Shown: positions 519-35,561 of the stretch, piece after piece
Numbering within the stretch: position 1 is the stretch's first letter
Layout of the letters: each line of letters opens with the position of its first letter
Assembly: GCF_001293685.1 (NCBI RefSeq)
Contig: NZ_BCAG01000003.1
Coordinates: forward strand, 2,046,001-2,110,000
From: Desulfatitalea tepidiphila
Lineage (GTDB): Bacteria; Desulfobacterota; Desulfobacteria; Desulfobacterales; Desulfosarcinaceae
Length of the DNA stretch: 64,000 nt
Direction: 5' to 3'
Translations under genes and position numbers: made by a program
Notes under the pieces: generated by a model
The model's input: only the letters and a program-made list of their open reading frames with translations
What the model was told of the DNA's origin: nothing
Database searches by the model: none

Positions 519-1190
519 TTAAACCCGCTGCAGCAGCGAGACTTTTCTTCTATCGTCGAGAAACGGCAGTTGGTAGTAAACTGTTTCTATGGGAATCATT
601 CGAAGGTCTGTGGCATCTCTTGCCAGGCCCTCGGCTGAGCTGTCGTTGGGCCCTTGGTAGGCGATGAGCCGGCCCTGGGGCGCGAGCAGGGGCAATGCCA
701 GGCTGACGGCGGTCGTCAGGTCGGTGAGGGCCCGGCAAACCACCACCTGATAGCGTGCTTTGCGATCCGTCTGTTCCGCAAGGGTTTGAGCCCTCGCATG
801 GAGCGCCTCGATGCGCGTCAGGCGCAACTGGCGGATCACATGATTCACGAAACTGATTTTTTTGCGCACGCTGTCGATGAGCGTCATGTCCAGATCGGGC
901 CGCATGATCTTGAGGGGAATCCCCGGAAAACCGCCGCCCGTGCCGATATCGAGCAACGCCCCCTCTTCCGGGAGCAAATGAAGGGGGGCGATGGCATCCA
1001 GGCAATGTTTGACGGCAACGTGCACGGGATCGGTGATGGCGGTCAGGTTGGTGCGCTGGTTCCACTCGAGGAGCAATTGCACATGCAGGGCCATTTGGCG
1101 CGCCTGGTCCGGGGAGAGGGAATGTCCCAGCCGGTCAGCGCCCTGAACCAACAGGTCGATCCATGCGTCGGAGCCGATGCGGGTCGTCAT
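519..1190 (-). CDS. rsmG: 16S rRNA (guanine(527)-N7)-methyltransferase RsmG
   Basis: This 223-residue protein is the SAM-dependent enzyme that methylates N7 of G527 in the 530 loop of 16S rRNA. It has the expected length and the family's SAM-binding motif LLDIGTGGGFPGIPLKI near residue 80, preceded by the helical N-terminal segment with WNQRTNLTAI. Its ATG overlaps the stop of the upstream CoA-transferase gene (ATGA), so the two are translationally coupled. It is not beside mnmG/gidA or parAB, its common neighbours elsewhere. Identification is secure; loss of this enzyme gives low-level streptomycin resistance in other bacteria. Confidence 0.95.
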   Translation of the reverse strand: MTTRIGSDAWIDLLVQGADRLGHSLSPDQARQMALHVQLLLEWNQRTNLTAITDPVHVAVKHCLDAIAPLHLLPEEGALLDIGTGGGFPGIPLKIMRPDLDMTLIDSVRKKISFVNHVIRQLRLTRIEALHARAQTLAEQTDRKARYQVVVCRALTDLTTAVSLALPLLAPQGRLIAYQGPNDSSAEGLARDATDLRMIPIETVYYQLPFLDDRRKVSLLQRV

Positions 1191-3073
1191 TTCGTTTCAG
1201 AGGGTGCCTCGGCGGCATCATCGAAATCCATGATGACGGTGGTATCGATCCCCCCGCTGAGGTCGACTTTGGCATTGGGATAGCGCTTTTTGAATACCCG
1301 CAGCATGGCCTTATTTTCCTTGAGGACCGTGGCGGTGAAACCTTTGAAGCCGTTTTCCATGGCGATCTTCTCCAATTGGGGCAGCATGTGAGAGGTCACG
1401 CCCATGCCCTGGAAATCTTCCCGGACCACGAAGGCCACTTCGGCACGACCGGTGCCTTCATCGGCATACGAGCCGATGGCCACGATCTCCTGGTGGCCGC
1501 CTTTCTGGGTGAGTCCGATCAGTGACATGTTTTTACGGTAATCCACGCTGGCCCACTGCTGTTGGGCGTGCTCGTGCGAAAACAGGCGCATCTTGTAGAA
1601 AAACCGAAGATAGATGGTCTCTTCCTTCAGTGAATAGAAGAAGTTGCGGTATTCGAACTCGTCGGAGGGCAGCAGGGGCCGGAATTCGATGGTCTTTCCG
1701 TTGCGCAGGGTCACCCGTGATTTGTAGCTTTCCAGGAAGATCAGGTCGTCCTGGGCCGGTGGGAGCTGGTCGCCGAAGATGTAATGGCGTTTCTTGGCGA
1801 CATCGATCAGCTCTTCGCGGAATTTGGGATGGGCGATCTGGGCCAGTTCCATGACCCGCTGGTAGATGCTCTTGCCTTTCAATTCGGCAATGCCATATTC
1901 GGTCACCACGAAATTGACGTCGCCGCGGGTGGTCGCCACGCCGGCCCCCTCGCTCAGATGGGGGACGATACGCGACACCTTACCGCCCTGGGCCGTGGAA
2001 GGCAGTGCGATGATGGAAAAGCCGCCTTTCGACATGGCGCTGCCCCGCAGAAAGTCGACCTGGTCGCCGATGCCGCTGTAGAACAGGTAGCCCATGGAGT
2101 CGGTGCAGACCTGACCGGTCAGATCGACCTCCAGGGCCGAAGATATGGAGACCAGATTGTCGTTGCGGGCAATCACGGTGGGATCGTTTACAAAGTCCGA
2201 GGAACGGAAATAAAATTGGGGATTGTCATCCACATAACGGTAGAGTTTCTCCGATCCCATGCACAGCGAGGCCACCACCCGGCCGGGCAGCAGGGTCTTC
2301 TTCTTGTTGGTGATCACCCCCCTTTCCAGAAGCGGAACAAAGGCGTCGGTGATCACCTGAGTGTGCACCCCCAGATCCTTTTTGTCGGACAGGTAAGGCA
2401 GGATGGCATCGGGCAGATGGCCGAAGCCGATCTGGATGGTGGCGCCGTCGTCCACGAGCTGATTGACGTAATATCCGATACGGCTGGCCACCTCCTGGTT
2501 TTTGGACAGAGAGACGGCTTCTACGAGCGGTTCCTCGTGCAGAACGAAGTAATCGATGTCATCCACATGCACGATACAGTCGCCCCAGGTCCGGGGCATC
2601 ATGGGGTTGACCTGGGCGATGACCATCTTGGCGGCCTCCAGGCCGGCCTTGGTGATATCCACCGACACCCCCAGGCTGCAATACCCGAATCGATCCGGCG
2701 GACTGACCTGTACCAGGGCGACATCGAGACCGATGCGATTGCTGGCGAACATGTTGGGGATTTGCGACAGATAGGTGGGCAGATAGTCTATCTTGCCCTC
2801 GAAGGCCGCCTTGCGCATGCTGGTGCTGATAAAAAAAAGCTTCAGGGCGAATCTACGGAGAAATTTGGGGTCATCGACATATTTGGACAGGGTGAAAGAG
2901 AGCATCTGGTAAATGACCGCATCCTGAATGATCGGATTGGCAACCAGCGATCGAATCAGATGCTGAGGCTCGCCGCATCCGGTGCCGATGAAAATCCGGC
3001 TGCCGTTTTTTATGTGCGAAAGGGCCTCTTTGGTACTCGCCACCTTATCGGGACAGTATTCCCTGACGTCCAT
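1187..3073 (-). CDS. Acetyl-CoA hydrolase/transferase family protein with C-terminal GNAT domain
   Basis: The protein has 628 residues. Residues 1-440 match class I CoA-transferases of the acetyl-CoA hydrolase/4-hydroxybutyrate CoA-transferase type (GFGHLPDAILPYL near 216, then ITNKKKTLLPGR near 254). Residues 465-615 form a GNAT acyltransferase domain with the acetyl-CoA loop FQGMGV. The CoA-transferase half should move CoA between acyl groups through a catalytic glutamate; at the position where relatives usually read HTE or HSE, this protein reads HTQ (237-239). The enzyme may therefore be altered or non-canonical. Fusion to GNAT suggests acyl-CoA-linked protein acetylation or acetate metabolism, but this is inference. 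It is the first gene of a two-gene unit with rsmG and has a plausible promoter at 3191-3219. Confidence 0.85.
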   Translation of the reverse strand: MDVREYCPDKVASTKEALSHIKNGSRIFIGTGCGEPQHLIRSLVANPIIQDAVIYQMLSFTLSKYVDDPKFLRRFALKLFFISTSMRKAAFEGKIDYLPTYLSQIPNMFASNRIGLDVALVQVSPPDRFGYCSLGVSVDITKAGLEAAKMVIAQVNPMMPRTWGDCIVHVDDIDYFVLHEEPLVEAVSLSKNQEVASRIGYYVNQLVDDGATIQIGFGHLPDAILPYLSDKKDLGVHTQVITDAFVPLLERGVITNKKKTLLPGRVVASLCMGSEKLYRYVDDNPQFYFRSSDFVNDPTVIARNDNLVSISSALEVDLTGQVCTDSMGYLFYSGIGDQVDFLRGSAMSKGGFSIIALPSTAQGGKVSRIVPHLSEGAGVATTRGDVNFVVTEYGIAELKGKSIYQRVMELAQIAHPKFREELIDVAKKRHYIFGDQLPPAQDDLIFLESYKSRVTLRNGKTIEFRPLLPSDEFEYRNFFYSLKEETIYLRFFYKMRLFSHEHAQQQWASVDYRKNMSLIGLTQKGGHQEIVAIGSYADEGTGRAEVAFVVREDFQGMGVTSHMLPQLEKIAMENGFKGFTATVLKENKAMLRVFKKRYPNAKVDLSGGIDTTVIMDFDDAAEAPSETK

Positions 3074-3190
3074 CCATGTCTCCTTCTTGTCTGTGCCATC
3101 CCCCCATGGCTGATAGGTGCCATATCGGGCCAGCTGTTCCCGGGGCGACCGCTGGCGCCGGACCGCACGGTGTTTTGAAATTTGGCGCTA

Positions 3191-3219
3191 ATTTGACTTG
3201 AATTGTCGGCAAGTGTCAA
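3191..3219 (-). promoter_or_regulatory. Sigma-70-type promoter for the CoA-transferase-rsmG unit
   Basis: On the minus strand TTGACA (3214-3219) is followed after 17 bp by TCAAAT (3191-3196). A start near 3184 gives a leader of about 110 nt before the ATG at 3073. The -35 is perfect and the -10 matches 4 of 6 bases. Confidence 0.5.
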
Positions 3220-3246
3220 GCGGCCATTTCTGAAAACAGGCATTCT

Positions 3247-3281
3247 AACGAAATGCTATTCATTAAACCCGGCGTGAGTTG
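3247..3281. repeat. Short dispersed repeat shared with 28207-28241
   Basis: A segment containing CATTAAACCCGGCGTG aligns over about 35 bp to the region after the second PilZ gene, where the core reads CGTTAAACCCGTCGTG. It looks like a remnant of a larger dispersed element. Confidence 0.5.
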
Positions 3282-3314
3282 AGCAGGCGGTCGATGCCAC
3301 ACGCCAAGCGGTCA

Positions 3315-3406
3315 AGTGTCGCTAAAATGCACGGCGGGCGGCCCAGAAACTCGCTGCGCTCAAACAGTCTGGGCCGCTTGTCCGCTGTTTGCATTCTAGC
3401 GACACT
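3315..3406. repeat. Inverted-repeat element, family 4 (92 bp)
   Basis: The ends AGTGTCGCTAAAATGCA and TGCATTCTAGCGACACT are complementary with one mismatch. Farther in, GGCGGCCCAGA pairs with TCTGGGCCGC. The whole segment can fold as one long hairpin. It carries no gene and has no second copy in the window. Confidence 0.6.
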
Positions 3407-3564
3407 AAACCGCATGGCTCACGTGGCCCTGGCCACCTGTCCAACTCACGCCTATCATGTCCGTGCACTGCGATTTTTTTATCAAACGCCTTCCGCAAGG
3501 CCTGCCCTTAAAGGCGAATCACTTTCAGTTGGAATAGATGTTCTGAAAATTTATTATTTTTTTA

Positions 3565-3882: not shown

Positions 3883-5970
3883 ATGAACACCAACACCCAA
3901 TTCGTACGCAACATCGGCATCAGCGCTCATATCGATTCCGGCAAGACCACATTGACCGAGCGCATCCTTTTCTACACCCAGCGCATTCATGCCATCCACG
4001 ATGTCAAGGGCAAGGATGGGGTGGGCGCCACCATGGACTCCATGGAACTGGAAAAGGAGCGGGGCATCACCATCGCCTCGGCGGCCACCTTTTGCCAATG
4101 GAAAAACAATGAAATCAACATCATCGACACGCCGGGGCATGTGGACTTCACCATCGAGGTGGAGCGCTCCCTGCGGGTGCTCGACGGTGCCATTCTCGTG
4201 TTGTGTTCGGTGGGTGGTGTCCAGTCCCAATCCATCACCGTCGATCAGCAGATGAAACGCTACAATGTCCCGTGCATTGCTTTCATAAACAAGTGCGACC
4301 GCAGCGGTGCCAATCCGTTCCGGGTGATCGAACAGCTCAACAGCAAGTTGGGGCACAATGCCGTGGCCATGCAGATCCCCATCGGCCTGGAGGCCGGCCA
4401 TCAGGGCCTGGTGGATCTCGTCACCATGAAAGCCTTCTATTTCGAAGGAGACAATGGCGAAAAGATCATCGAGAAAGAGATTCCGACCGAGTTGCAGGAG
4501 GCGGCCCGTGAAAAACGCGAGGCGTTGATCGATGCGGCGACCATGTTTTCAGATGATCTTACCGAGACGGTCCTGGAAGAAAAGCCCGTATCGGCCCAGA
4601 TGCTCCTGGAAGCGGTCCGCACCGGCACCCTGCAGCGCAAACTGACCCCGGTCTTCATGGGCTCGGCTTACAAAAACAAGGGCGTACAACTACTCTTGGA
4701 TGCGGTCGTTTCTCTGCTGCCCTGCCCCGAGGAAGTGGTCAACCAGGCCCTGGACCTGAATGCCGATGAAACGCCGGTCGTCCTGAAAACCGATCCCAAG
4801 CTGCCCACCGTGTCGCTGGCCTTCAAGCTCGAGGATGGTCAATATGGACAATTGACCTATATCCGGGTGTACCAGGGCAAACTGGCCAAGGGCGATACGG
4901 TGGTCAACGTGCGCACCGGTAAAAAGATAAAAATCGGTCGACTGGTGCGCATGCATGCCAACCAGATGGAAGACATCCCCGAGCTTCCGGCCGGGTTCAT
5001 CGGGGCCATGTTCGGCGTCGACTGCGCCTCGGGCGACACCTTCGTCTCTCCGGAGGTGCGCCTGACCATGACCTCCATGTATGTGCCCGAACCGGTCATC
5101 TCCCTGGCCATATCCCCCAAGGATCACAAGGCCGAGATCAATATGTCCAAGGCCTTGAACCGTTTCAGCAAAGAAGACCCGACCTTCAAGACCCATGTGA
5201 ACGAAGAGACCGGAGAGACGATCATTTCGGGCATGGGCGAATTGCACCTGGAGGTCTATATCGAGCGCATGCGCCGGGAATACAGCGCCGAGGTGATCAC
5301 GGGCGCTCCCCAGGTCGCCTATCGGGAAACCATTACCCAGATGGCCGAATACGACTATATCCATAAAAAACAGACCGGCGGCTCGGGACAATACGGCCGC
5401 GTGGCCGGCTACATCGAGCCGTGCAGCGAAGCGGATTTCATTTTTGACAACAAGGTGGTCGGCGGTACGGTCCCGACCCAGTATATCCCCGCTTGTGAAA
5501 AGGGGTTCCGGGCCTGCATGGCCAAGGGCCCCAAACTTGAATTCCCGGTGACCGGCGTGCGCGTGGTACTCAACGATGGCGCCTCGCACAGCGTGGACTC
5601 CTCGGACATGGCATTCCAAGCGGCTGCGAGGGGCGGCTTCCTGCAGGCCTATGCCAAGGCCAAACCGGTGATCCAGGAGCCGATCATGAAGGTGGTGGTC
5701 GAGACGCCCACCGAATTCCAAGGGCCGGTCATGGGTTCGTTGAATCAGCGTCGCGGCATGATCGTCGGCACCCAGGACGAAGGGGTCATGTGCGCCATCG
5801 AATCCCAGGTGCCCTTGGCCGAGATGTTCGGATACTCGACGGTGCTGCGCTCGTTGACCCAGGGCAAGGCCCAGTTCACTATGGAGTTCGCCCAATACAA
5901 ACAGGTGCCGCAATCCATTGCCGAAGAGATTGCAAAGAAGGTCGGCGAAAAGAAAAAGAATGTGGCCTAG
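3883..5970 (+). CDS. fusA: Elongation factor G (spd/mitochondrial EFG1-like type)
   Basis: A 695-residue translational GTPase that catalyses ribosomal translocation. The G motifs are visible: AHIDSGKT (G1, near 16), GITI (G2), DTPGH (G3), NKCD (G4, instead of the usual NKMD) and GSA (G5). Domain IV has the expected GGSGQYG segment near residue 495. The phrase [17 protein letters not shown] is typical of mitochondrial EF-G1 and of the spirochaete-planctomycete-deltaproteobacterial form (spdEFG1) described as its sister, rather than the str-operon EF-G that reads AHIDAGKT. No rpsL, rpsG or tuf flanks it, which fits a stand-alone copy. RBS AAAGGA precedes the ATG. Whether it is the main translocase or works with a second EF-G in recycling cannot be told here. 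Confidence 0.93.
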
Positions 5971-6058
5971 TGCCCATCCACAAATGGCCCATTGGCCCGA
6001 TATCGGCGTCGCACGAAAAATATAATCCTCGGAATATCAACTACATGCCTGCGGTTTT

Positions 6059-6085
6059 ATTTTTCGTGCGCCTTGATCTCGAACC
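6059..6085. repeat. Fragment of the family 1 repeat
   Basis: The block TTCGTGCGCCTTGATCTCGA matches the internal part of the family 1 elements (TTCGCGCGCCTTGATCTTGA at 450-469). The terminal inverted repeats are missing. The 292-bp gap between EF-G and the next gene holds nothing else I recognise. Confidence 0.45.
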
Positions 6086-6262
6086 AATTTGCCTATATGT
6101 GGACGCGTACCAGTTAAGACAACCCCTGGAACGATCACGAATATGTCGCAGATAGAATCGGAGGCGGTCCCGACGGACCGCAACACCCGCCGTTGGACGC
6201 CTGCCATGTCCATGCAAAGGGACGGCAGCAACGGTCGGGTGATCCTTCTGAAGGAGAGGAGC

Positions 6263-6967
6263 ATGGCCATGTTGAAACAAGACCTTATCTTGCGCAATCC
6301 GCTGCGGTTGCTGGGGCATGAAAACGATGACATTCTCGAACCCGGCCAATTCGGCGCCGTGCTGGCGCGGGCGGGTGTGGGCAAAACCGCATTGATCGTG
6401 CAAATCGCCCTCAACACCATGCTGCGCAGCAAGAACGTGCTCCATATCAGCCTGAACGAGCCGGTCGGCAAGGTAGACCTGTGGTATCAAGAGGTGTTGG
6501 GACGGCTGGCCCAGCAATACCAGGTGACCCACCTGGATCAATTGTGGGACGCCATTGTACCGCACCGTTTTATCATGACGTTTCAGGTTGAAGGGTTCAG
6601 TGCGCCCAAACTCGAAGAGCGCCTCACCGATTTGACGCTGCAGAATATTTTCAAACCGGATATTCTCTTGATCGACGGTCAGCCGTTCGACCAGGACGTT
6701 CCCGAGGTGCTCAAGGAACTGAAGGCGCTCGCAACCCGCCTGAACCTGCCCATCTGGTTCACCATCACGACCCACCGGCACGAGGCGCCGGCCCCGGACG
6801 GGCTTCCGGTGCAACTGTCCTCGGTGCAGGAGCTGTTCGAGGTGGCGATCTCCCTGCAACCCGAGGAGCAGACCGTGCACATCAAAGCGTTAAAAGGCTG
6901 CTCACTTTCCGAAGCACAGCCTCCGCTGGTGCTGGATCCATCCACCATGCTGATCCAGGGGGTTTAG
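6263..6967 (+). CDS. RecA/KaiC-like P-loop ATPase, function unknown
   Basis: A 234-residue single-domain ATPase. Walker A is ARAGVGKT (35-42) and Walker B is DILLIDG (133-139), in the order and spacing of RecA/RadA/KaiC-superfamily folds. No zinc finger, DNA-binding domain or second ATPase domain is seen. The ATG at 6263 was chosen because AAGGAGAGG ends 4 nt upstream; an in-frame start 174 bp earlier lacks an RBS and adds low-complexity sequence. No operon partner is evident: EF-G ends 292 bp upstream and the next gene is convergent. The protein is often annotated simply as an AAA-family ATPase; no substrate can be assigned. Confidence 0.75.
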   Translation: MAMLKQDLILRNPLRLLGHENDDILEPGQFGAVLARAGVGKTALIVQIALNTMLRSKNVLHISLNEPVGKVDLWYQEVLGRLAQQYQVTHLDQLWDAIVPHRFIMTFQVEGFSAPKLEERLTDLTLQNIFKPDILLIDGQPFDQDVPEVLKELKALATRLNLPIWFTITTHRHEAPAPDGLPVQLSSVQELFEVAISLQPEEQTVHIKALKGCSLSEAQPPLVLDPSTMLIQGV

Positions 6968-24856: not shown

Positions 24857-26464
24857 ATGATTACCCTGTTGGACTATGGCGCCGGAAATGTGCGCAGCGT
24901 GATCAATGCCATCGAAAGTCTGGGGGAGAAGGTGCAGGTGGCTTCCCATCCCGACCATATCCATGGCGCCCGGAAGCTGGTTTTTCCCGGCGTCGGCGCC
25001 TTTGGCAACATGATGCAGATCTTGCACGACAAGCAACTGGTTGAACCGCTGAAGAGATACCTCGCTTCCGGACGTCCATTTCTGGGGATCTGTCTGGGCA
25101 TGCATGCCTTGTTCGAAGCAAGCGAGGAGTCGCCGGGGATCCCTGGGCTAGCATTTTTCAAAGGTCAGGTCAACCGCTTCGACGTCCCCCTGGCCGTGCC
25201 GCATATCGGCTGGAACGGCATCAAGGCGCGTCAGTCGTCACGCCTCTTCAACGATGTGGACAAGGATGAAAAGTTTTATTTCGTCCATTCGTATCATGTG
25301 GTTCCCGATGACCAGGGTATCGTCCTCACCACCACGGATTACGGCTATGAATTTGTCAGCGCCATTCAGCAGGGCCAGATCATCGCCACCCAGTATCACC
25401 CCGAAAAAAGCGGTCCGGCGGGTTTGCGCCTTCTGCGGAATTTTTTAAATTCATCGCTTGAACCAGCGGCCTTGGCCACCGGCCATGATCGAACCCGGTT
25501 GGCCAAACGCATCATCGCCTGTTTGGATGTGCGTGCCAATGACAAAAATAATCTGGTGGTGACCAAGGGAGATCAGTACGACGTTCGGGCGCAGGGTGAG
25601 GTGCGTGATCTGGGAAACCCGGTGGATCTGGCTCAGCGCTACTATGAAGAGGGGGCCGATGAAATCACTTTTCTCAATATTACGGGTTTTCGCGACTTTC
25701 CATTGGCCGATATGCCTATGCTGGAAGTGCTCGAAAAGACCTCTCGGCGGGTATTCGTCCCACTGACCATCGGCGGCGGCATCCGGGATTTCACCGATGC
25801 CAATGGCCGTGCCTATTCCGCGCTGCAGGTGGCCGCGGCCTATTTTCGCTCCGGTGCGGACAAGATTTCCATTGGCAGCGATGCGGTGCCTGTCGTCGAG
25901 GCCTATCTTGAGAACGGCAAAGCCACCGGCCAGAGCGCCATAGAACAAATTTCCCGGGTCTACGGCAGCCAGGCCGTCGTCATTTCCATCGATCCGCGGC
26001 GCGTCTACGTCCCTTCACCCGCAGATGTTCCCTACCAGGTCATTCACACCGATGTGCCCGGCCCCAACGGTGAATCTTATTGCTGGTACCAATGCACGAT
26101 CAAGGGGGGACGCGAGGGGCGACCGGTCGATGCCATCACCCTGGCCCAGACCTGTCAGACGCTGGGGGCCGGGGAAATCCTGCTGAATTGCATCGATCGT
26201 GACGGCACCAATTCCGGGTACGACCTCGAGCTCGTTCGAGCCGTCAAAAATGCCGTTTCCATACCGGTCATCGCCTCCAGCGGGGCTGGTGCATTGTCGC
26301 ATTTTTACGACGTGTTCGCTCTCACCGATGCCGATGCCGCCCTTGCGGCAGGTATTTTTCATCGCCGTGAGGTACCGATTCAGGCCGTCAAGCAATTTTT
26401 AACCGGCAAGGTGGTGATCCGCAGGATTGCGTCATCGCCCCCAACCAGGCCCATACAGGCTTAA
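24857..26464 (+). CDS. hisHF: Fused imidazole glycerol phosphate synthase HisH-HisF (HIS7-type)
   Basis: A 535-residue bifunctional enzyme making imidazole glycerol phosphate and AICAR in histidine synthesis. The N-terminal glutaminase has Cys79 (GICLGMH), His181 and Glu183 (QYHPEKS). The C-terminal cyclase has the catalytic Asp224 (ACLDVR) and a second acid in CIDRDGTNSGYD. Most bacteria keep HisH and HisF separate, near 200 and 255 residues. The fusion, together with segments such as AAAYFRSGADKISIGSDAV and AVVISIDPRRVYV, resembles the eukaryotic HIS7 form. No other his gene is near, and it stands alone between two gaps. The RBS is weak (AGGAT). Confidence 0.93.
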   Translation: MITLLDYGAGNVRSVINAIESLGEKVQVASHPDHIHGARKLVFPGVGAFGNMMQILHDKQLVEPLKRYLASGRPFLGICLGMHALFEASEESPGIPGLAFFKGQVNRFDVPLAVPHIGWNGIKARQSSRLFNDVDKDEKFYFVHSYHVVPDDQGIVLTTTDYGYEFVSAIQQGQIIATQYHPEKSGPAGLRLLRNFLNSSLEPAALATGHDRTRLAKRIIACLDVRANDKNNLVVTKGDQYDVRAQGEVRDLGNPVDLAQRYYEEGADEITFLNITGFRDFPLADMPMLEVLEKTSRRVFVPLTIGGGIRDFTDANGRAYSALQVAAAYFRSGADKISIGSDAVPVVEAYLENGKATGQSAIEQISRVYGSQAVVISIDPRRVYVPSPADVPYQVIHTDVPGPNGESYCWYQCTIKGGREGRPVDAITLAQTCQTLGAGEILLNCIDRDGTNSGYDLELVRAVKNAVSIPVIASSGAGALSHFYDVFALTDADAALAAGIFHRREVPIQAVKQFLTGKVVIRRIASSPPTRPIQA

Positions 26465-28245: not shown

Positions 28246-28953
28246 TTATTCAAGGCTATTCAAAAAAGGCGCAAAAATCGATTTAATATGCGCCAAGGAG
28301 TCCTCCACGGGTGGCATGAGAAATTTTGCGAACACATCGAGATGAACCAGCGCATTCACGACTGAATCCTTGGAGGAAGCTGCCCGCAATCGCTGAACCA
28401 TGGCATCGTTGAGTCGTGCGATATCGTTGTATATCTTCACCAGGCCATCGAGGCTCACATCTGCCTGACCCATTCCGTTTGTTGTGAAATAGCGCCCCAT
28501 GAGATAGGTGGCCGCAGCCCGCCAGAGAGTTTCATCCTTGCTGGCAAAGGGCAGGTGGAAGCGTGCCATGGGTTTGAAAAAATGGGTATACGGACAGCGA
28601 CTTCCCGCGATCAGCAGGCCCATGAGAGAACTCAACCCCTCTTGAGCCGTGGTTTGCAGTTCCACCCGGCGTTCCGAGCTCACCACACTGACCGATATCT
28701 TGTCGAAAGACATCAAATGATCGAATTTGGTGATGGCCGGGACCAAATTCAAGGCGACCGGGCAATGGGGTTCTTTATTGGGTTGCAGGGGGCAATGAAC
28801 GCATTTTTCGTATTCAAGACGCGTCCAAAAGAGTGCCTTTTTCGGGAGCTCCGTGATCAGTTCGGTTTTTCGTGCATCGAAAGCGAGGTCAAAGATTTCC
28901 AGATCCCCATTCGGCAATGTGAATGTGTAGGCAATACGAAAAGTTTTGGGCAT
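28246..28953 (-). CDS. Hypothetical protein with four conserved-looking cysteines
   Basis: A 235-residue soluble protein that I do not recognise. The cysteines are Cys51 and Cys54 (CVHC), Cys64 (HCPV) and Cys120 (RCPYTHFF). Their clustering suggests a zinc or iron-sulfur site, with the first three in a CX2CX9C pattern. The N-terminal 50 residues look like a beta-rich domain and the second half is helical. No signal peptide or membrane helix. It stands alone between dispersed repeats and the acetylation genes. The metal site is inference. Confidence 0.65.
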   Translation of the reverse strand: MPKTFRIAYTFTLPNGDLEIFDLAFDARKTELITELPKKALFWTRLEYEKCVHCPLQPNKEPHCPVALNLVPAITKFDHLMSFDKISVSVVSSERRVELQTTAQEGLSSLMGLLIAGSRCPYTHFFKPMARFHLPFASKDETLWRAAATYLMGRYFTTNGMGQADVSLDGLVKIYNDIARLNDAMVQRLRAASSKDSVVNALVHLDVFAKFLMPPVEDSLAHIKSIFAPFLNSLE

Positions 28954-29271: not shown

Positions 29272-30702
29272 ATGCTTTTCGCCACTACGATTTTTCTCCT
29301 ATTTTTTCTTCCGGCAACAATCGGTAGTTACTACATCGAGAAATCATTTTTTGGCAACCGGTTCCGCAACATTGTCCTGCTGCTTTTCAGTTATTTGTTC
29401 TATGCCTACGGGGCTGCCGAATTCGTTTTTATCCTGTTCTTCTCCACGGTGTCAGATTACCTGATCGGGCTCGCTTTACGTGAATCCAAATACCACAGGA
29501 AATGGTGGGTTGGCATCTCCACCATACTGAATTTAGGCCTCATCACCTATTTCAAGTATGCCAATTTTTTAGTCACCGAGATAACCAGTTGGATAGCGGC
29601 GATGGGCGTCGATGCACCCCAGGATTGGGTTGCGGTGGCGCTGCCGATCGGCATCTCGTTTTTTACCTTTCAAAAAATGAGCTACATCATCGATATCTAC
29701 AGAAGGCAAGCCGAGCCGATCACTCGATTCGTAGACTTTGCCCTCTATGTCGCCATGTTTCCCCAATTGATCGCCGGCCCCATCGTTCGATTCAAGGATA
29801 TTGCAGTCCAGCTCGAACTTCGAGCGGAAACGTGGGAACGTTTCTATCTGGGCGCCATGCGATTTTGCTGGGGGCTTTCGAAAAAGGTGTTTATTGCCGA
29901 CGCCTGCGGTCAGATTGCCGACGCGGTCTTCGAATTGAATATGGGAGCGTTGGACACCAAAAGCGCCTGGTTGGGAGCCGCGGCCTATACCCTGCAAATC
30001 TACTTTGATTTTTCGGCCTACTCGGATATGGCCATCGGTCTTGCCAGGCTCTTCGGTTTCGAATTGCGCGAAAACTTCAACCGCCCCTATGCCGCGGTGA
30101 GCATGACTGATTTTTGGCGCAGATGGCATATATCGCTCAGCACCTGGTTCAGAGACTATCTCTACATCCCCCTGGGTGGAAATCGAAAAGGAACGGCCCG
30201 CACCGCGTTCAATCTGCTCCTGGTGTTCACTCTATGCGGCCTCTGGCACGGCGCCAATTGGACATTCGTTGCCTGGGGGTTGTATCATGGTTTTTTTCTC
30301 GGCATCGAAAGGCTCACCGGCCTTCGCAAACTACCGCAACACCGATGGATGGTGCCACGACGCGCCGTCATTTTTCTTTTGGTGATGTTCGGCTGGGTGC
30401 TTTTCCGTTCGGAAAACATCGCATCGGCCATTGGCTTCATGCAAACGATGGTGGTCCCCTCGGACCTTGCGCTGGCATTCGATGTGTACGAGGTGTTGCA
30501 TCATCGTAACATCTTGTTTATGGCGATTGCAGCAGCGGGGACCCTCGGCGCGTCCCGGTTGCCGACGATCGAAGACATCATGCGCTGCGAGGGGCCTCTG
30601 AGAGCGTTCGTAAGCATGGTCCTTCTGTTCATCATGCTTCCCTACTGTGCGGGCACGATGATGGCGGGAGGTAGTCATCCGTTTATCTACTTCCGCTTTT
30701 AA
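29272..30702 (+). CDS. MBOAT family O-acyltransferase (AlgI-like)
   Basis: A 476-residue multi-pass membrane protein that moves acetyl groups across or at the inner membrane for polysaccharide O-acetylation, as AlgI does for alginate. MBOAT features are FFTFQKMSYIIDIYR, FPQLIAGPIVRF, NFNRPYAAVSMTDFWRRWHI and the invariant His in LCGLWHGANWTF. It is followed after 32 bp by the AlgJ-like/esterase protein, its presumed periplasmic partner. No alginate, cellulose or other synthase lies nearby, so the polymer is unknown. Confidence 0.92.
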   Translation: MLFATTIFLLFFLPATIGSYYIEKSFFGNRFRNIVLLLFSYLFYAYGAAEFVFILFFSTVSDYLIGLALRESKYHRKWWVGISTILNLGLITYFKYANFLVTEITSWIAAMGVDAPQDWVAVALPIGISFFTFQKMSYIIDIYRRQAEPITRFVDFALYVAMFPQLIAGPIVRFKDIAVQLELRAETWERFYLGAMRFCWGLSKKVFIADACGQIADAVFELNMGALDTKSAWLGAAAYTLQIYFDFSAYSDMAIGLARLFGFELRENFNRPYAAVSMTDFWRRWHISLSTWFRDYLYIPLGGNRKGTARTAFNLLLVFTLCGLWHGANWTFVAWGLYHGFFLGIERLTGLRKLPQHRWMVPRRAVIFLLVMFGWVLFRSENIASAIGFMQTMVVPSDLALAFDVYEVLHHRNILFMAIAAAGTLGASRLPTIEDIMRCEGPLRAFVSMVLLFIMLPYCAGTMMAGGSHPFIYFRF

Positions 30703-30734
30703 GCGACCGACCCAATGCAATACGGCCTGGGCAT

Positions 30735-33599
30735 ATGAATTCTGACAAACCTGCTGATCGGCATCGAAAATGGGGGGGACCGCATGTTTTTTCCTTCCTC
30801 TTCATGTTGATACTCGTTTTACCCGTTACCTTGGGCGTACTGGGTGTTGCTTCTCCGGCGCTTGACGATACGCCCCAGGCACAAGCGCCGTTGATGGACT
30901 TCAGGGCGTTGATGATGCCGGAATACTACCGGGCCTGGGGAAGCTATCTGGATGAGCGGCTGTCGCTGAGCGGAGTGTTGACAAGAATGAAGCGATGGGT
31001 GGATTACCGGCTGTTTTCGATGACTGATGTCAAAAGCATCCATGTGGGTCGCGAGGGGTGGCTGTTTCAGCAAGATTCGATCGCGTCGGACCCGACTGCC
31101 GCAATCGATCAGAGGCGCCGTTTCCGGCAGATGATATTTCAATTGACGGCGGTCGCCCACCTGGTGGAGACATCGGGACGCCGACTGGTGTTTACCATCG
31201 CACCCGACAAAGCGAAGATCTACCCGGAATATCTAGGTTATCTTCCCAAACACACGGAGCTTCGCCAGACCGATTACGACATCTTCCTCGATGAGTGCAA
31301 GTTGGCCGATTGCCGGTGGTTCATACCGCTGGACGATCTCTTCATGGCGGCCAAATCAGATGAACACTGGCTATACGACAAGCACAGCGCCGTGTGGAAT
31401 CAACGCGGTGCCCGTTTGGCCGCCGAAGCGCTGCTCAACGCCGTCTTTGAGGACGATGCATCGATTCAACCCAACTATTATGACCTGGGAGCCCAAGTCA
31501 TGGGGGCGCCCATCGCGTCTCAGAGACCATCTGCTTCCCAAGACCGGCAGTTATCTTCGCTGGTGCTGTATGGCGGCATGGCGATGAATGAATTGATCCC
31601 GAACGTATCGCCCTATTTCAGCCGCACCGATGCGATTGCCACCGATACGATCCCATCGCCGAACCATGGAGAGAATATGTCGCACTATGACGCGGCCATG
31701 GTGGTGCTCGATGGGACCCAGATCGATAAATTCGTGCTCGACCTGGACCGTATCTGTAACGTGCTCGACGTCGAATCATTGGCCCAGCAAGCCGATTCAA
31801 TCCCTTTGATCACTGTTTCCAGCGAATCGCAACTCTCCTTAAGAACTGAAGGGAACAAGCTGGAGGTCAAATCCCTCGGGTCACAGTCCGCTTTTCTACT
31901 TCCCCCCCTGCCCGGTTCCGAGCCCGGCGTATTGAGAGTACTTGTAATGGAACTTTCGTCGCCCAATGCCGATACGCTTCGATGGCATATCGGCGCGACG
32001 TTTTCCGATGGCGGCGAAAAGCAGATCTTCAAAGGAGACAACCGCCTTTATTTCCCACTACCGGTGCAACCTTCGGTACGCCTCCGCATCCACCCTGGAA
32101 GGCATACCGGCCTGTTTTACCTCAACAAAGCCATGGTGCTCGAATACGCCAATGGACTCACCCAGGCGAGCCTGCCGAACGAGGATCAAAGGAGATGGCC
32201 CGTCCCAGCCATCGCAAGTGACGAAAGCCATATGGCGAAATCGGCGGGTTCCCGGGAGTCCCTGCCCGCACCCGCTGGCGTCGAGGCGTCCGCGATTCAG
32301 CTCCACGATTTTGACGAGAGGCGAATTTTCCAGCGTTCCGGGAAAAGCGCCGACATCGTCGTTTCCGGCGTTTACCGGGGACGACCCGATGCAATAGAAG
32401 CGCGGGTTTCGAACCATTCGAACCAGGATTGGGCCACGCCCTGGACCGTCATCGACAACAACCCAACCGACGGAGTCTTCATGGGCATTATGCCTGAAGT
32501 CCCCCAAGGTGGGTGGTATCGTCTTGCCGTGCGCTTCTCCAATGACCAGGACATCATGGATGTAGGAAAATCCAGATGGGGTGTCGGCCTGCTGGCGGCC
32601 TGCATCGGACAATCCAATATGAAAGAGTGGTTTCATAGCGGCAGCGACCTGTCCCCCCACTCTTTGCTTTCCGTGCATCGCGACAGCCAGTGGATCGCCA
32701 TGGGGGAATCCGGCAATGGCGCCATTGCACTGGGAAATCGTTTGATCGGCAGACTCGGCATTCCGGTCGGGCTGCTGGATTACGCGGTCAATGGTTCCGG
32801 TCTTCGGAAGGAAGCCGACTGGGGCGCCGGCTATTGGCTGGACCGGTCACATGCGTCCATCTACAACCAATTTATTCAGGGTGTCGCAAAAACAGGCGGT
32901 ATGCTCGAGTATGTCATCTGGATGCAAGGGGAAGCCGATGCGGCGCGGGCCACGATCAGTGAGCGCCAATACCGGAATGCACTTAAAACCTTCCTCGAAC
33001 AACATCTTCGCCAGGACATCGTCAACGGGTCACACCTTCGACATCTTCCCTTGTTGATCGTTGGCATGCCAAAACGCCCGGTTGGCAAAGATGGCCCTCA
33101 TCAAGCCATCCGGGCCGCGCTGCATGCCGTGGCCGAAGAGACTGAGGACTGCTACTTGTCGGCGATCTCCATGGATTTGCCAAACATGGGACGGCAACAT
33201 CTGACCCCTTCCGCCTATACCACGCTGGGACTGCGGGTGGCACAAACGATTCTGTATCTGAACGGCGAAGAGAGTTACTATCGAGGGCCGTCGGTGGTTG
33301 GCGCGACCAGGGTGGATACTCAAACCATCGACATTCGAATCGCACACCGGGGAGGCTTCGATTTCAACCCTCGGGTAGCCATCACCGGCTGGGAGCTGGT
33401 CGGGGGAGGATCGACTTTGACGACGGCTCAAATTGCGCGCCGAGATGCCGACACGATTCGGATCTCGATGTCCGAGGCATTCAACGGCCCGATAACCATT
33501 CGCTATCTCTCTGGCGCCATGCCCGATGCCAATAGGGCCGTTCATGACAACTCGCCCATGGAACTCCCCCTGGAGCCGGCCGAGTTAACCCTCGAGTGA
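30735..33599 (+). CDS. AlgJ-like domain fused to a sialate O-acetylesterase-like SGNH domain
   Basis: A 954-residue envelope protein. A signal anchor is at 14-36. An AlgJ/AlgX-type domain follows (about 50-350) with VGREGWLFQQD, FTIAPDKAKIYPE and YDKHSAVWNQRGA (Asp/His dyad). In such enzymes a nucleophile-bearing segment of the GTSYS/GDSFS kind follows; here it reads LVLYGGMAMNE, with no serine. After a beta-rich stretch, residues 615-860 form a sialate-esterase-like domain: GQSNM (about 623-627), WMQGEAD and HLTPSAYTTLG; about 90 Ig-like residues close the protein. It probably works with the MBOAT protein in acetylating or trimming a surface polysaccharide. The fusion is unusual and the active sites need testing. 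Confidence 0.8.
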   Translation: MNSDKPADRHRKWGGPHVFSFLFMLILVLPVTLGVLGVASPALDDTPQAQAPLMDFRALMMPEYYRAWGSYLDERLSLSGVLTRMKRWVDYRLFSMTDVKSIHVGREGWLFQQDSIASDPTAAIDQRRRFRQMIFQLTAVAHLVETSGRRLVFTIAPDKAKIYPEYLGYLPKHTELRQTDYDIFLDECKLADCRWFIPLDDLFMAAKSDEHWLYDKHSAVWNQRGARLAAEALLNAVFEDDASIQPNYYDLGAQVMGAPIASQRPSASQDRQLSSLVLYGGMAMNELIPNVSPYFSRTDAIATDTIPSPNHGENMSHYDAAMVVLDGTQIDKFVLDLDRICNVLDVESLAQQADSIPLITVSSESQLSLRTEGNKLEVKSLGSQSAFLLPPLPGSEPGVLRVLVMELSSPNADTLRWHIGATFSDGGEKQIFKGDNRLYFPLPVQPSVRLRIHPGRHTGLFYLNKAMVLEYANGLTQASLPNEDQRRWPVPAIASDESHMAKSAGSRESLPAPAGVEASAIQLHDFDERRIFQRSGKSADIVVSGVYRGRPDAIEARVSNHSNQDWATPWTVIDNNPTDGVFMGIMPEVPQGGWYRLAVRFSNDQDIMDVGKSRWGVGLLAACIGQSNMKEWFHSGSDLSPHSLLSVHRDSQWIAMGESGNGAIALGNRLIGRLGIPVGLLDYAVNGSGLRKEADWGAGYWLDRSHASIYNQFIQGVAKTGGMLEYVIWMQGEADAARATISERQYRNALKTFLEQHLRQDIVNGSHLRHLPLLIVGMPKRPVGKDGPHQAIRAALHAVAEETEDCYLSAISMDLPNMGRQHLTPSAYTTLGLRVAQTILYLNGEESYYRGPSVVGATRVDTQTIDIRIAHRGGFDFNPRVAITGWELVGGGSTLTTAQIARRDADTIRISMSEAFNGPITIRYLSGAMPDANRAVHDNSPMELPLEPAELTLE

Positions 33600-33720: not shown

Positions 33721-34632
33721 ATGACGAAAAAGCTCCCCTCAAAACCAACGGATATCCCTTCGGATCAACTTACCCATGGGACGTCGACGAACGAAGGGCG
33801 CCAACAACCGGCCAATGAGGATGGGTGCGCCTTCACTGCGCTGATCGATATGTGCAACCACATCTGCAGGTCCAATCATCTCGACTCATTGCTGCAAATG
33901 GTCGCAACTCAAGTTCGAAGCATGGTCCCGTCCGAAGGCAGCATCATCCTGCTCTGTGATCCTGTCGAAAACGGCCCCGTCCCAGCGGCAATGAGTGTCG
34001 ATCATGGTGAATTGGAAACCGTTTTCAGGTCTGATGGTAAAATGATTGGACAGCGCCTGGCCGGCCACGTGTGTGAAACCGGCATTCCGATTTTAGAAAA
34101 TCAAGGCAGCCAAACCTGCCATCCGGCACCAGAGGGTTTTGACCTCAACCGGATAGTAAACCGCATCGTGGTTCCGTTAACTGCCTTGAACCGCACGGCA
34201 GGCGTCGTGATTGTAGTGAACAAAAGGGATGGCATTTTCAACGAAGCGGATATGGCTCTGCTGAGCACGGTCTGCGGCCTGACGGCATTGGCCATGGAGA
34301 ATATTCAAGCCCGTGAATCCTTGCTGGATTATCGCAGCCAACTGGAAAATTTCAACACCGCCAGGGACCGCGTGATCCACCAGTTCTCCCATGCGCTTAA
34401 AACCCCATTGGCCGTACTGATCGCGTCCTTGAAACTGTTGAGCAGGCATTTGAACCGATCCACTGGCGACGCCTGGCTTCCTGTTTATGATCGCGCCCAG
34501 CGAAACTTGGCAAGACTGCTCTCCATCGAGTACGAAATGGAAGACATCCTGGGACAACGGCAGGATAGCACACCACCCACAAAAACGGTTCCAGACCCAA
34601 AAGCCGTCCGAGCGAAAGCCGATCTTGAATAA
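33721..34632 (+). CDS. GAF-domain protein with a histidine kinase dimerisation domain but no ATPase domain
   Basis: A 303-residue cytoplasmic protein. Residues 35-195 form a GAF sensor domain. Residues 205-285 form a HisKA-like domain with H-box HQFSHALKTPL (His224). The HATPase domain that should follow is absent; the protein ends 80 residues later without N, G1 or G2 boxes. The next gene, 32 bp on, encodes a small kinase with an ATPase domain. The two may form a split kinase or act in trans on each other. The RBS is weak. Confidence 0.75.
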   Translation: MTKKLPSKPTDIPSDQLTHGTSTNEGRQQPANEDGCAFTALIDMCNHICRSNHLDSLLQMVATQVRSMVPSEGSIILLCDPVENGPVPAAMSVDHGELETVFRSDGKMIGQRLAGHVCETGIPILENQGSQTCHPAPEGFDLNRIVNRIVVPLTALNRTAGVVIVVNKRDGIFNEADMALLSTVCGLTALAMENIQARESLLDYRSQLENFNTARDRVIHQFSHALKTPLAVLIASLKLLSRHLNRSTGDAWLPVYDRAQRNLARLLSIEYEMEDILGQRQDSTPPTKTVPDPKAVRAKADLE

Positions 34633-34664
34633 CTGTGCCCTCGGGTCAAAAGGAAAGCGCCGAT

Positions 34665-35561
34665 ATGACCGACACCCTCTCCAGGAACGACCGGATTCTG
34701 AATTCACAGGAACCAGATGTCGATGCATCAAAAATCGAGGGGGAGGACATCAGTACCACCGCGTGCCAGGACGCGGAAACGGAAACGGTCCAAGAGTCCT
34801 TTTTCCGTCAGGTCAACATCGAGTTTTTGTTCCACGAGTTGAAAGACCCGGTCAGCATCATTGAAACGGGCGTCCGCATGCTTTTGGATAAAAAGACGGC
34901 CATGAACCCCTTGAGTCCATCCCAGGAACGCACCCTGACCCGGATATTGCGCAATGTCCACAAAACCCGCGATATGCTCAACGAATTACTGGAAGTCGGC
35001 CGAGCCGAAAGCGCCTGCTTCAATTGCCATGTGTTTGATCCCATCCGTCTCCTGCACGAAAAGCTGCTGGAGGTGATCGAAAAGAACGATCCTGAACTTT
35101 ACGAAGAAATTCGACAGGAGCCGGATCAGCAAGGTTGTATGGCGATTCTGGGCAAGAGGGGCATCCGCCTCGACATCGCACCATCGGCGAGAGGCGTGAC
35201 CATGGCGCAGGATGAACTGAAATTCGGTCAAATGGTTGGCAATCTGCTAAAAAACGGGCTCTACTACCGGCGTCGGCAACTCCTCATTCATATATCTTTT
35301 CAACACGAACGTCTGTCCATCGCGGTCCGTGACGATGGCCCGGGTATCGCCCCAGAACATCACGAGGACATATTCATGCGCTACAAACAGATTCTCGCGC
35401 CGGCGGGGGTCGCCCGAAGCAGTCATGGATTGGGATTGGCGGTTTCCCGCATTATGGCAAGATCCATGGGCGGCGACATCACCATCGAAAGCGAATTGGG
35501 TTTCGGCGCCTTGTTCAAACTGGCGTTGCCCGTTTCGCACCCCAAAACCAACAACGGTTGA
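34665..35561 (+). CDS. Small cytoplasmic histidine kinase
   Basis: A 298-residue kinase with no sensor domain and no membrane helix. The H-box is FHELKDPVS (His57). The ATPase domain has N-box NLLKNGLYY, G1 DDGPGIAPE and G2 SHGLGLAVSR. An N-terminal stretch of about 50 acidic residues may dock it to the upstream GAF protein. The ATG at 34665 was chosen for AGGAAAG upstream. No response regulator is adjacent. It may phosphorylate, or be tuned by, the GAF-HisKA protein encoded just before it. Confidence 0.8.
   Translation: MTDTLSRNDRILNSQEPDVDASKIEGEDISTTACQDAETETVQESFFRQVNIEFLFHELKDPVSIIETGVRMLLDKKTAMNPLSPSQERTLTRILRNVHKTRDMLNELLEVGRAESACFNCHVFDPIRLLHEKLLEVIEKNDPELYEEIRQEPDQQGCMAILGKRGIRLDIAPSARGVTMAQDELKFGQMVGNLLKNGLYYRRRQLLIHISFQHERLSIAVRDDGPGIAPEHHEDIFMRYKQILAPAGVARSSHGLGLAVSRIMARSMGGDITIESELGFGALFKLALPVSHPKTNNG

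Follow-up and report, generated by a model that had tools for sequence, protein, structure and literature searches.

The window considered here, a 64,000-nt stretch of Desulfatitalea tepidiphila (assembly GCF_001293685.1, contig NZ_BCAG01000003.1, positions 2,046,001–2,110,000, forward strand), carries two neighbouring genes on its + strand, of which the first (29272..30702) encodes an MBOAT O-acyltransferase of 476 residues and the second (30735..33599) a 954-residue protein that fuses an AlgJ/AlgX-like half to a SASA/CE20-type half. The stop of the MBOAT gene and the start of the fusion gene lie 32–33 bases apart on the same strand. A first-pass annotation had described an MBOAT followed by a 954-residue open reading frame (ORF) that combines an AlgJ-like half with a second, SGNH-type domain; both ORFs are present, as are the motifs GGMAM, GQSNM and MGRQHLTP, and the single protein matches both ALGX (PF16822) and SASA (PF03629). 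Judged from sequence, the pair appears to be a variant of the MBOAT–SGNH kind in which the AlgJ half fails the triad test as an AlgJ enzyme. Such pairs are regarded as acylating systems for alginate, cellulose and peptidoglycan in which catalysis of the transfer falls to the SGNH partner (PMC12148441).

The fusion protein begins with a hydrophobic helix (residues 16–35; 30780..30839), recognizable in the sequence and lying in a low-confidence part of the model, which is a probable membrane anchor. The AlgJ-like SGNH core (residues 100–345; 31032..31769), identified by PF16822 and by the sequence and fold of AlgJ 4o8v, lacks the catalytic triad and is followed by a domain modelled as rich in beta strands (residues 350–472; 31782..32150). 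A 43-residue linker (32154..32282), probably flexible given the low predicted local distance difference test score (pLDDT) in 474–516, leads to the second half; among the 23 full-length members of the family described below its length ranges from 41 to 372 residues, with a median of 70. The second half comprises a beta domain (residues 520–610; 32292..32564; strands, pLDDT mostly >90), the SASA/CE20-type SGNH domain itself (residues 611–842; 32565..33260; PF03629) and a C-terminal beta domain (residues 850–948; 33282..33578) seen in the model and included in the stretch common to viral homologues. AlphaFold modelling of the whole 954-residue protein gave a moderate pLDDT of 69.1, and its PDB fold matches include CE20 chains, AlgX and AlgJ.

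The AlgJ-like half retains the fold of its family and has lost the residues that make it an enzyme. ALGX matches fusion residues 103–240 (E 5.9e-12; 46.2 bits vs a cut-off of 26.5), covering profile positions 2–133 of 268 only, and in sequence searches of the PDB the first half matches AlgJ 4o8v best (E 1.2e-6 with the single sequence, 3.3e-10 with the profile). To compare catalytic positions, we aligned 25 fusion rows (23 full-length, plus the contig-cut L045 and L047) with 14 standalone AlgJ-type proteins, 13 of which have an MBOAT in the locus; three control loci (L104, L105 and L109), where no AlgJ-type ORF was picked, stand outside the 14, and a fourth (L111) has an AlgJ-type ORF without an adjoining MBOAT match. 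The PxK signature of AlgJ persists as Pro157 and Lys159 (31209..31211) in all 25 fusion rows and all 14 standalone proteins, which, together with the PF16822 score, places the half in the AlgX/AlgJ family as a fold; since both residues are kept in every fusion row, the alignment indicates that this fold is still under constraint. The triad of P. putida AlgJ, by contrast, is given as D190, H192 and S288 in the portion of the report drawn on here (PMC4148444), and these places are occupied by other residues in the window protein: Ser218-Ala219-Val220 (31386..31394) stands where AlgJ has the Asp and His of DxH, both in the family alignment and in the alignment to 4o8v, and Met282 (31578..31580), the third residue of GGMAM, stands in the family alignments where AlgJ has its catalytic Ser. 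Across the family, Ser occurs in its column in 2 of 25 fusion rows vs 14 of 14 standalone proteins, Asp (at Ser218) in 0 of 25 vs 12 of 14, and His (at Val220) in 1 of 25 vs 14 of 14. No fusion row has all three, and the (R/K)TDTHW motif with its full Ser-His-Asp triad, the mark of an AlgX/AlgJ O-acetyltransferase, is thus found in 0 of 25. The first-pass annotation had reported a missing nucleophile Ser; by alignment the loss extends to the His and the Asp, and no intact Ser-His-Asp was found in the first domain. The mean pairwise identity of the AlgJ core is 35.1 among the fusions, and in standalone pairs it is 29.8 for AlgJ vs 47.6 for the MBOAT.

The second half presents the opposite picture, with an active site kept nearly without exception in the alignment. 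SASA matches fusion residues 665–840 (E 2.6e-13; 50.6 bits vs a cut-off of 24.8), and conservation was tallied over 25 rows (the 23 full-length proteins, L034 and L044; the fragment L048 from genome G158 was not counted). Ser627 of GQSNM (32613..32615), the predicted nucleophile, is present in 25 of 25 rows, as are the Gly and Gln of block I, in which Gln626 would be the oxyanion Gln. In the QGE of block III, Gln731 is kept in 24 of 25 rows, the Gly in all and Glu733 (32931..32933) in 24. His822 (33198..33200), the predicted general base, is found in 25 of 25, the lone Tyr in that column being a misplaced end of the fragment L048, and Asn686, Gly687 and Asp814 are likewise invariant (25/25 each). 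The SASA signature of a GQS Ser in block I, QGE in block III and a His in block V is therefore complete except for the block V Asp. At its usual place stands Gly819 (33189..33191), with Gly in 25 of 25 rows, which upholds the earlier remark that the His region of the second domain lacks an Asp three residues before the His; two residues before His822, every row but one has Arg or Lys. SASA enzymes, as defined by their blocks in the sections of the source used here, employ the block I Gln, held by the QGE motif, in the oxyanion hole, and NanS, itself a SASA enzyme, is described there as lacking the block V Asp (PMC9487903). CE20 enzymes with an inserted domain have a water-mediated triad. For these two reasons, a missing block V Asp does not exclude activity.

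The structural model assigns the second half to the CE20 fold. Modelled with viral homologues in the alignment, it reached a pLDDT of 94.8 and a predicted template modelling score of 0.91, and the top nine Foldseek matches in the PDB are chains of 7kmm, SIAE, 9h4u and 9ega at 12–19% identity, with E-values for the whole second half of 2.2e-23 (7kmm), 2.8e-23 (SIAE 8f9p) and 1.1e-18 (9h4u). The CE20 catalytic arrangement itself, a DxH with an anchor Asp/Asn and a water-mediated triad, is absent, and a sequence search of the PDB with the second-half profile returned no CE20 chain, with only 2apj below 0.001. Conservation of the domain equals that of the MBOAT, the mean pairwise identity being 60.7 for the SASA core (23 rows) and 60.5 for the MBOAT (24 rows). 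The label of sialate esterase in the first-pass annotation is no more than the name of a family; the domain adopts the CE20 fold, and phage proteins are the closest relatives found.

The MBOAT partner has the features expected of its kind. It matches PF03062 (E 1.6e-30; 107 bits vs a cut-off of 27), the sole such match in its own genome. The conserved His326 of WHG (30247..30249; numbering counted by hand on the ORF) and the C-terminal hexapeptide FIYFRF (30682..30699), an FXYXXF motif bearing the putative acyl-shuttle Tyr, are both retained in 24 of 24 aligned members, and also in a further locus, L055; the C-terminal consensus of fusion-linked MBOATs reads FIY(F/Y)(R/K)F. In PatA, the Tyr of FXYXXF is auto-acetylated and the acetylated hexapeptide is accepted by PatB as donor, as set out in the part of the source considered here (PMC12148441).

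The fusion is a conserved family, and its 23 full-length representatives show that the combination is not due to chance. Of 389 genomes sampled from the class, 36 matched at E 1e-5, 25 of them through the second half and 11 through the AlgJ half only, and two of those 11 (G158 and G360) proved to hold pieces of the fusion. In the order sample, likewise 389 genomes, the second-half profile found 26 that match, among them G158, where the match is confined to a piece of 32 residues. The fusion occurs in 2 of the 11 listed genomes of the genus. A phylum sample of 395 genomes (some of the same order) contained 26 matching genomes other than D. tepidiphila itself, all with AlgJ-half matches only. 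The 11 loci from the named collection comprise nine metagenome-assembled genomes of Desulfobacterales or Desulfobacteraceae and two labelled 'Deltaproteobacteria bacterium' (L036 and L041), which a local lineage table files under Myxococcota; L036 ends in a sequence identical to that of the protein in the genome G313, which belongs to the same order as the window. Without duplicates, the family numbered 28 rows, the window included, with both halves in one ORF in 23 and one half each, running into a contig end, in L034, L044, L045 and L047. In the remaining locus, L048 (2352–3452, G158), an MBOAT-like piece directly precedes an AlgJ piece in one open frame of 286 residues, with 32 second-half residues found; this is an apparent remnant of the pair, through decay or assembly error. 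A search of titles and abstract starts, covering open-licence papers and no preprints, returned no paper apparently describing an AlgJ–SASA fusion.

The pairing with the MBOAT is as constant as the fusion itself. All 25 loci whose sequence extends upstream of the fusion (24 and L055) have an MBOAT gene immediately before it, a count that leaves aside L044, L046 and L048, which have no upstream sequence or, in L048, only the MBOAT-like piece; the earlier suggestion that the same fusion be sought beside MBOAT genes is thereby answered, and neither outcome that the first-pass annotation had named as a refutation, an intact triad in the first domain (judged here by alignment) or a fusion without conservation, was observed. 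When the ATG or GTG of the fusion frame closest to the MBOAT stop is taken as the start, which biases the figure toward short distances, the gap is no more than 9 bases in 19 of 24 loci. In the 27 genomes that carry all or part of the fusion, ALGX-family matches number one (the fusion itself) in 23, two in 2 and none in 2, where the AlgJ half falls beyond the contig end; MBOAT matches number one in 22 (in G285 on another contig), two in 3 and none in 2. In the D. tepidiphila genome each family has a single match. G180 and G267 each encode an additional ALGX-family protein and an additional MBOAT, and G246 encodes an additional MBOAT; the second pair of G180 is an adjacent standard MBOAT and AlgJ with DTHW and DSF motifs.

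A tree was built from 38 MBOATs, of which 24 are fusion-linked (L055 was left out) and 14 standalone; its midpoint root serves the drawing only. The fusion-linked proteins fall on one side of a branch with moderate support (92/67), and a single change of fusion state was recovered in 91% of 200 bootstrap trees. Together with the MBOAT of G733 they form a group of 25 at 100/99; next to the G733 MBOAT lies an unfused AlgJ that keeps its Ser, His and Asp. The simplest reading of these sequence data is one fusion event with loss of the triad. In the G733 locus (L101, 7632–8759), the profile match of the unfused AlgJ extends about 40 codons past a TGA stop, and its C-terminal part may have been cut short.

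The closest relatives found for the second half are, by sequence comparison, phage proteins, some of them of tail type. A scan of viral contigs identified 24 loci encoding relatives, with up to 41% identity over nearly the whole length; all 24 carry a SASA-type ORF scoring 95–450 bits with the family profile, and none has an AlgJ or MBOAT profile match at E 1e-3 in its available sequence. Three loci were inspected for phage context, and revealed an endolysin beside the L142 protein, a portal protein in L145 and a tail fiber assembly match in L146, whose 1916-residue protein also has two phage tail-domain matches just under Pfam cut-offs. At 1.5e-6 the window protein matches phrog_4201, a tail fiber protein, and a search of 50,697 phage records gave a single match, annotated as a putative tail fiber protein, at 25.8% identity. 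By fold, BFVD yielded an unnamed best match (1.0e-19) and, among others, proteins from the Salmonella phages ViI and Vi06. Plasmids searched for the second half gave no match. PF03629 matches occur in 10 of 297 genomes of the phylum, D. tepidiphila included, and a bacterial source within the phylum was considered and set aside, the best other bacterial ORF in the returned loci scoring 14.9 bits vs 95–450 for the viral proteins, an uneven comparison in that the viral proteins were collected by similarity to the second half and the bacterial scan used narrow patterns. Among 22 distinct viral proteins, the catalytic His is kept in 18 and lost in 4, and the 18 have an Asp three residues before the His in 15 cases, an Asp four before in 2 and an Asn in 1. 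Since most His-keeping viral homologues have the Asp, and the fusions have Gly in 25 of 25, the change from Asp to Gly marks the fusion group. One viral contig (L161) encodes two second-half-type proteins close together (730–3423 and 5279–6601), one with the His and one without.

The surroundings of the pair vary. In the window, CTP synthase and enolase genes lie downstream, with matching genes in G180. Behind the fusion, at 33721–35561 on the + strand, is a GAF protein with a weak, sub-cut-off HisKA match and no ATPase domain, followed 2 bases on by a HisKA and HATPase protein; the two may be a single sensor kinase that is split, or separate genes. They are probably not part of the unit, because in G180 the CTP synthase cluster directly follows the fusion. 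A DUF6901 gene (28246–28953, – strand) diverges from the MBOAT gene, and the same neighbour precedes the pair in G180 (L050). Further upstream, an ORF of 535 residues (24857–26464, + strand) with glutamine amidotransferase and His_biosynth domains is probably a fusion of HisH and HisF. In eight other loci (L042, L043, L061, L062, L063, L066, L067 and L068) the pair adjoins genes of a cluster holding a Ser/Thr kinase, with a PP2C-cluster gene in 6 of the 8, an FHA-cyclase cluster in 4 and a polysaccharide deacetylase cluster in 7, names that derive from annotation of L067 only. Another group of loci has a PlsB-type acyltransferase gene beside the pair, along with neighbours that, from their N-terminal sequences, we take to be ParE/ParC-like. 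No polymer pathway shared among the neighbours was seen and no particular surface polysaccharide could be linked to the pair; a polysaccharide-operon link was rejected.

We regard it as somewhat probable that the pair is an MBOAT–SGNH O-acyltransferase with transfer performed by the phage-type CE20 domain, and docking or positioning by the inactive AlgJ half. From acyl-CoA the MBOAT would take an acyl group, acetyl or another, and, by extension from what is described for PatA in the part of the source considered (PMC12148441), load it at the periplasmic face onto the Tyr of its C-terminal FIYFRF. The fusion protein would sit in the membrane next to the MBOAT, its triad-less AlgJ-like half providing a scaffold for docking or positioning. 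The SASA/CE20-type domain tethered to it could then accept the acyl group on Ser627, aided by His822 and the oxyanion arrangement of Gln626 and QGE, and pass it to a periplasmic or surface glycan.

Several observations weigh against this proposal. All nine leading fold matches of the second half in the PDB carry the names of esterases or deacetylases, and we know of no SASA transferase. Loss of the block V Asp may weaken catalysis of any kind. The low identity of the AlgJ half is not evidence of decay, since its ratio to MBOAT identity is about the same in standalone pairs, and relaxed constraint across the whole half was rejected on that ground. Many of the fusion-carrying genomes are incomplete drafts, and the D. 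tepidiphila genome encodes, away from the locus, a GDSL lipase-like SGNH ORF of 240 residues. An observation in its favour, that no other ALGX-family protein was found in 25 of the 27 genomes, comes from a search that did not extend to DltD-, DHHW- or PatB-type partners.

Hydrolysis is a serious rival to transfer, and the main one. On this account, which we consider unlikely, the SASA/CE20 domain acts as an O-acetylesterase, trimming or editing a glycan acetylated by the MBOAT system, the transfer being performed by an unlinked SGNH protein or by the MBOAT itself. CE20 and SASA relatives with known activity are esterases in the portions of the literature drawn on here, in line with the named fold matches; the phage relatives resemble tail esterases, and the genome's other SGNH ORF could fit such a division of labour. 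Yet an unlinked partner from the ALGX family was not found in those 25 genomes, the fusion stands beside the MBOAT where such systems have their transferase subunit, and the Asp is lost in all 25 rows though most viral homologues keep it. The first-pass annotation had proposed a machine for both acetyl transfer and editing; of the two, transfer is the best reading, and editing is the less favoured rival.

The alternative that neither SGNH domain transfers, the acyl-Tyr of the MBOAT passing its group directly to a glycan presented by the fusion protein as a lectin-like scaffold, appears improbable. An AlgJ half without its triad, a second domain without the block V Asp and several beta domains would suit such a scaffold, but a pure binder would not need Ser627, His822, Gln626 and QGE, which are kept nearly without exception, and loss of the His in 4 of the 22 distinct viral homologues indicates that loss occurs where it is tolerated. 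Least credible of all is that the AlgJ-like half remains catalytic through displaced residues such as D-K-H at 215–217, for although D215 and H217 lie three residues upstream of the canonical place in the window protein, this alternative pair is not conserved (H217 in 2 and D215 in 11 of the 26 members with a letter there) and no conserved Ser lies near 282.

How the proposed transferase arose can be sketched only tentatively. A phage tail-type esterase domain may have been captured once, in an ancestor of this group, fused to an AlgJ-type subunit and turned into a transferase, with the AlgJ triad decaying and the block V Asp lost in the shift from hydrolysis to transfer; we consider this history possible but doubtful, and the direction from phage to bacterium is likewise inferred. 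Were it correct, the host would be decorating its own surface glycan with a former phage receptor-modifying domain. Throughout the group, the SGNH partner looks like a pseudoenzyme and the fused SGNH domain of another family has the near-invariant active site. If transfer does proceed via the second domain, docking and catalysis would be separable in these systems, and the catalytic module replaceable, even by a phage-type one. At the catalytic-loop Asp the fusion domains differ from most of their phage counterparts, which also raises the question of what distinguishes an acyltransferase from an esterase.

Compared with known systems, the pair resembles PatA/PatB and AlgI/AlgJ(/AlgX) in setting an MBOAT next to an SGNH-type partner that has a hydrophobic helix at its N terminus, in the His and C-terminal FXYXXF motif of the MBOAT, and in the AlgJ fold and PxK signature; unlike in those systems, the AlgJ-type domain lacks the triad and is followed, in the same protein, by a second SGNH domain from a different family. 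With the CE20 esterases 7kmm (XAC1771, which we take to be XacXaeA), SIAE (8f9p) and 9h4u (presumably Fl8CE20_II) it shares the fold and the GQSNM block I, but here the domain is fused to a triad-less AlgJ half beside an MBOAT and lacks the block V Asp at the usual places. The phage SASA-type proteins of the 24 viral contigs (e.g. L142, L145 and L146) can be aligned over nearly the whole second half, whereas an AlgJ half or MBOAT is absent from the available sequence of 24 of 24 loci, and most of them keep the Asp. Finally, the unfused MBOAT and AlgJ pair of G733 (L101) has the AlgJ fold and the closest MBOAT outside the fusion group on the tree, but its AlgJ, which has no SASA match, retains the Asp, His and Ser (DSHW, ADSFM) that the fusions have lost.

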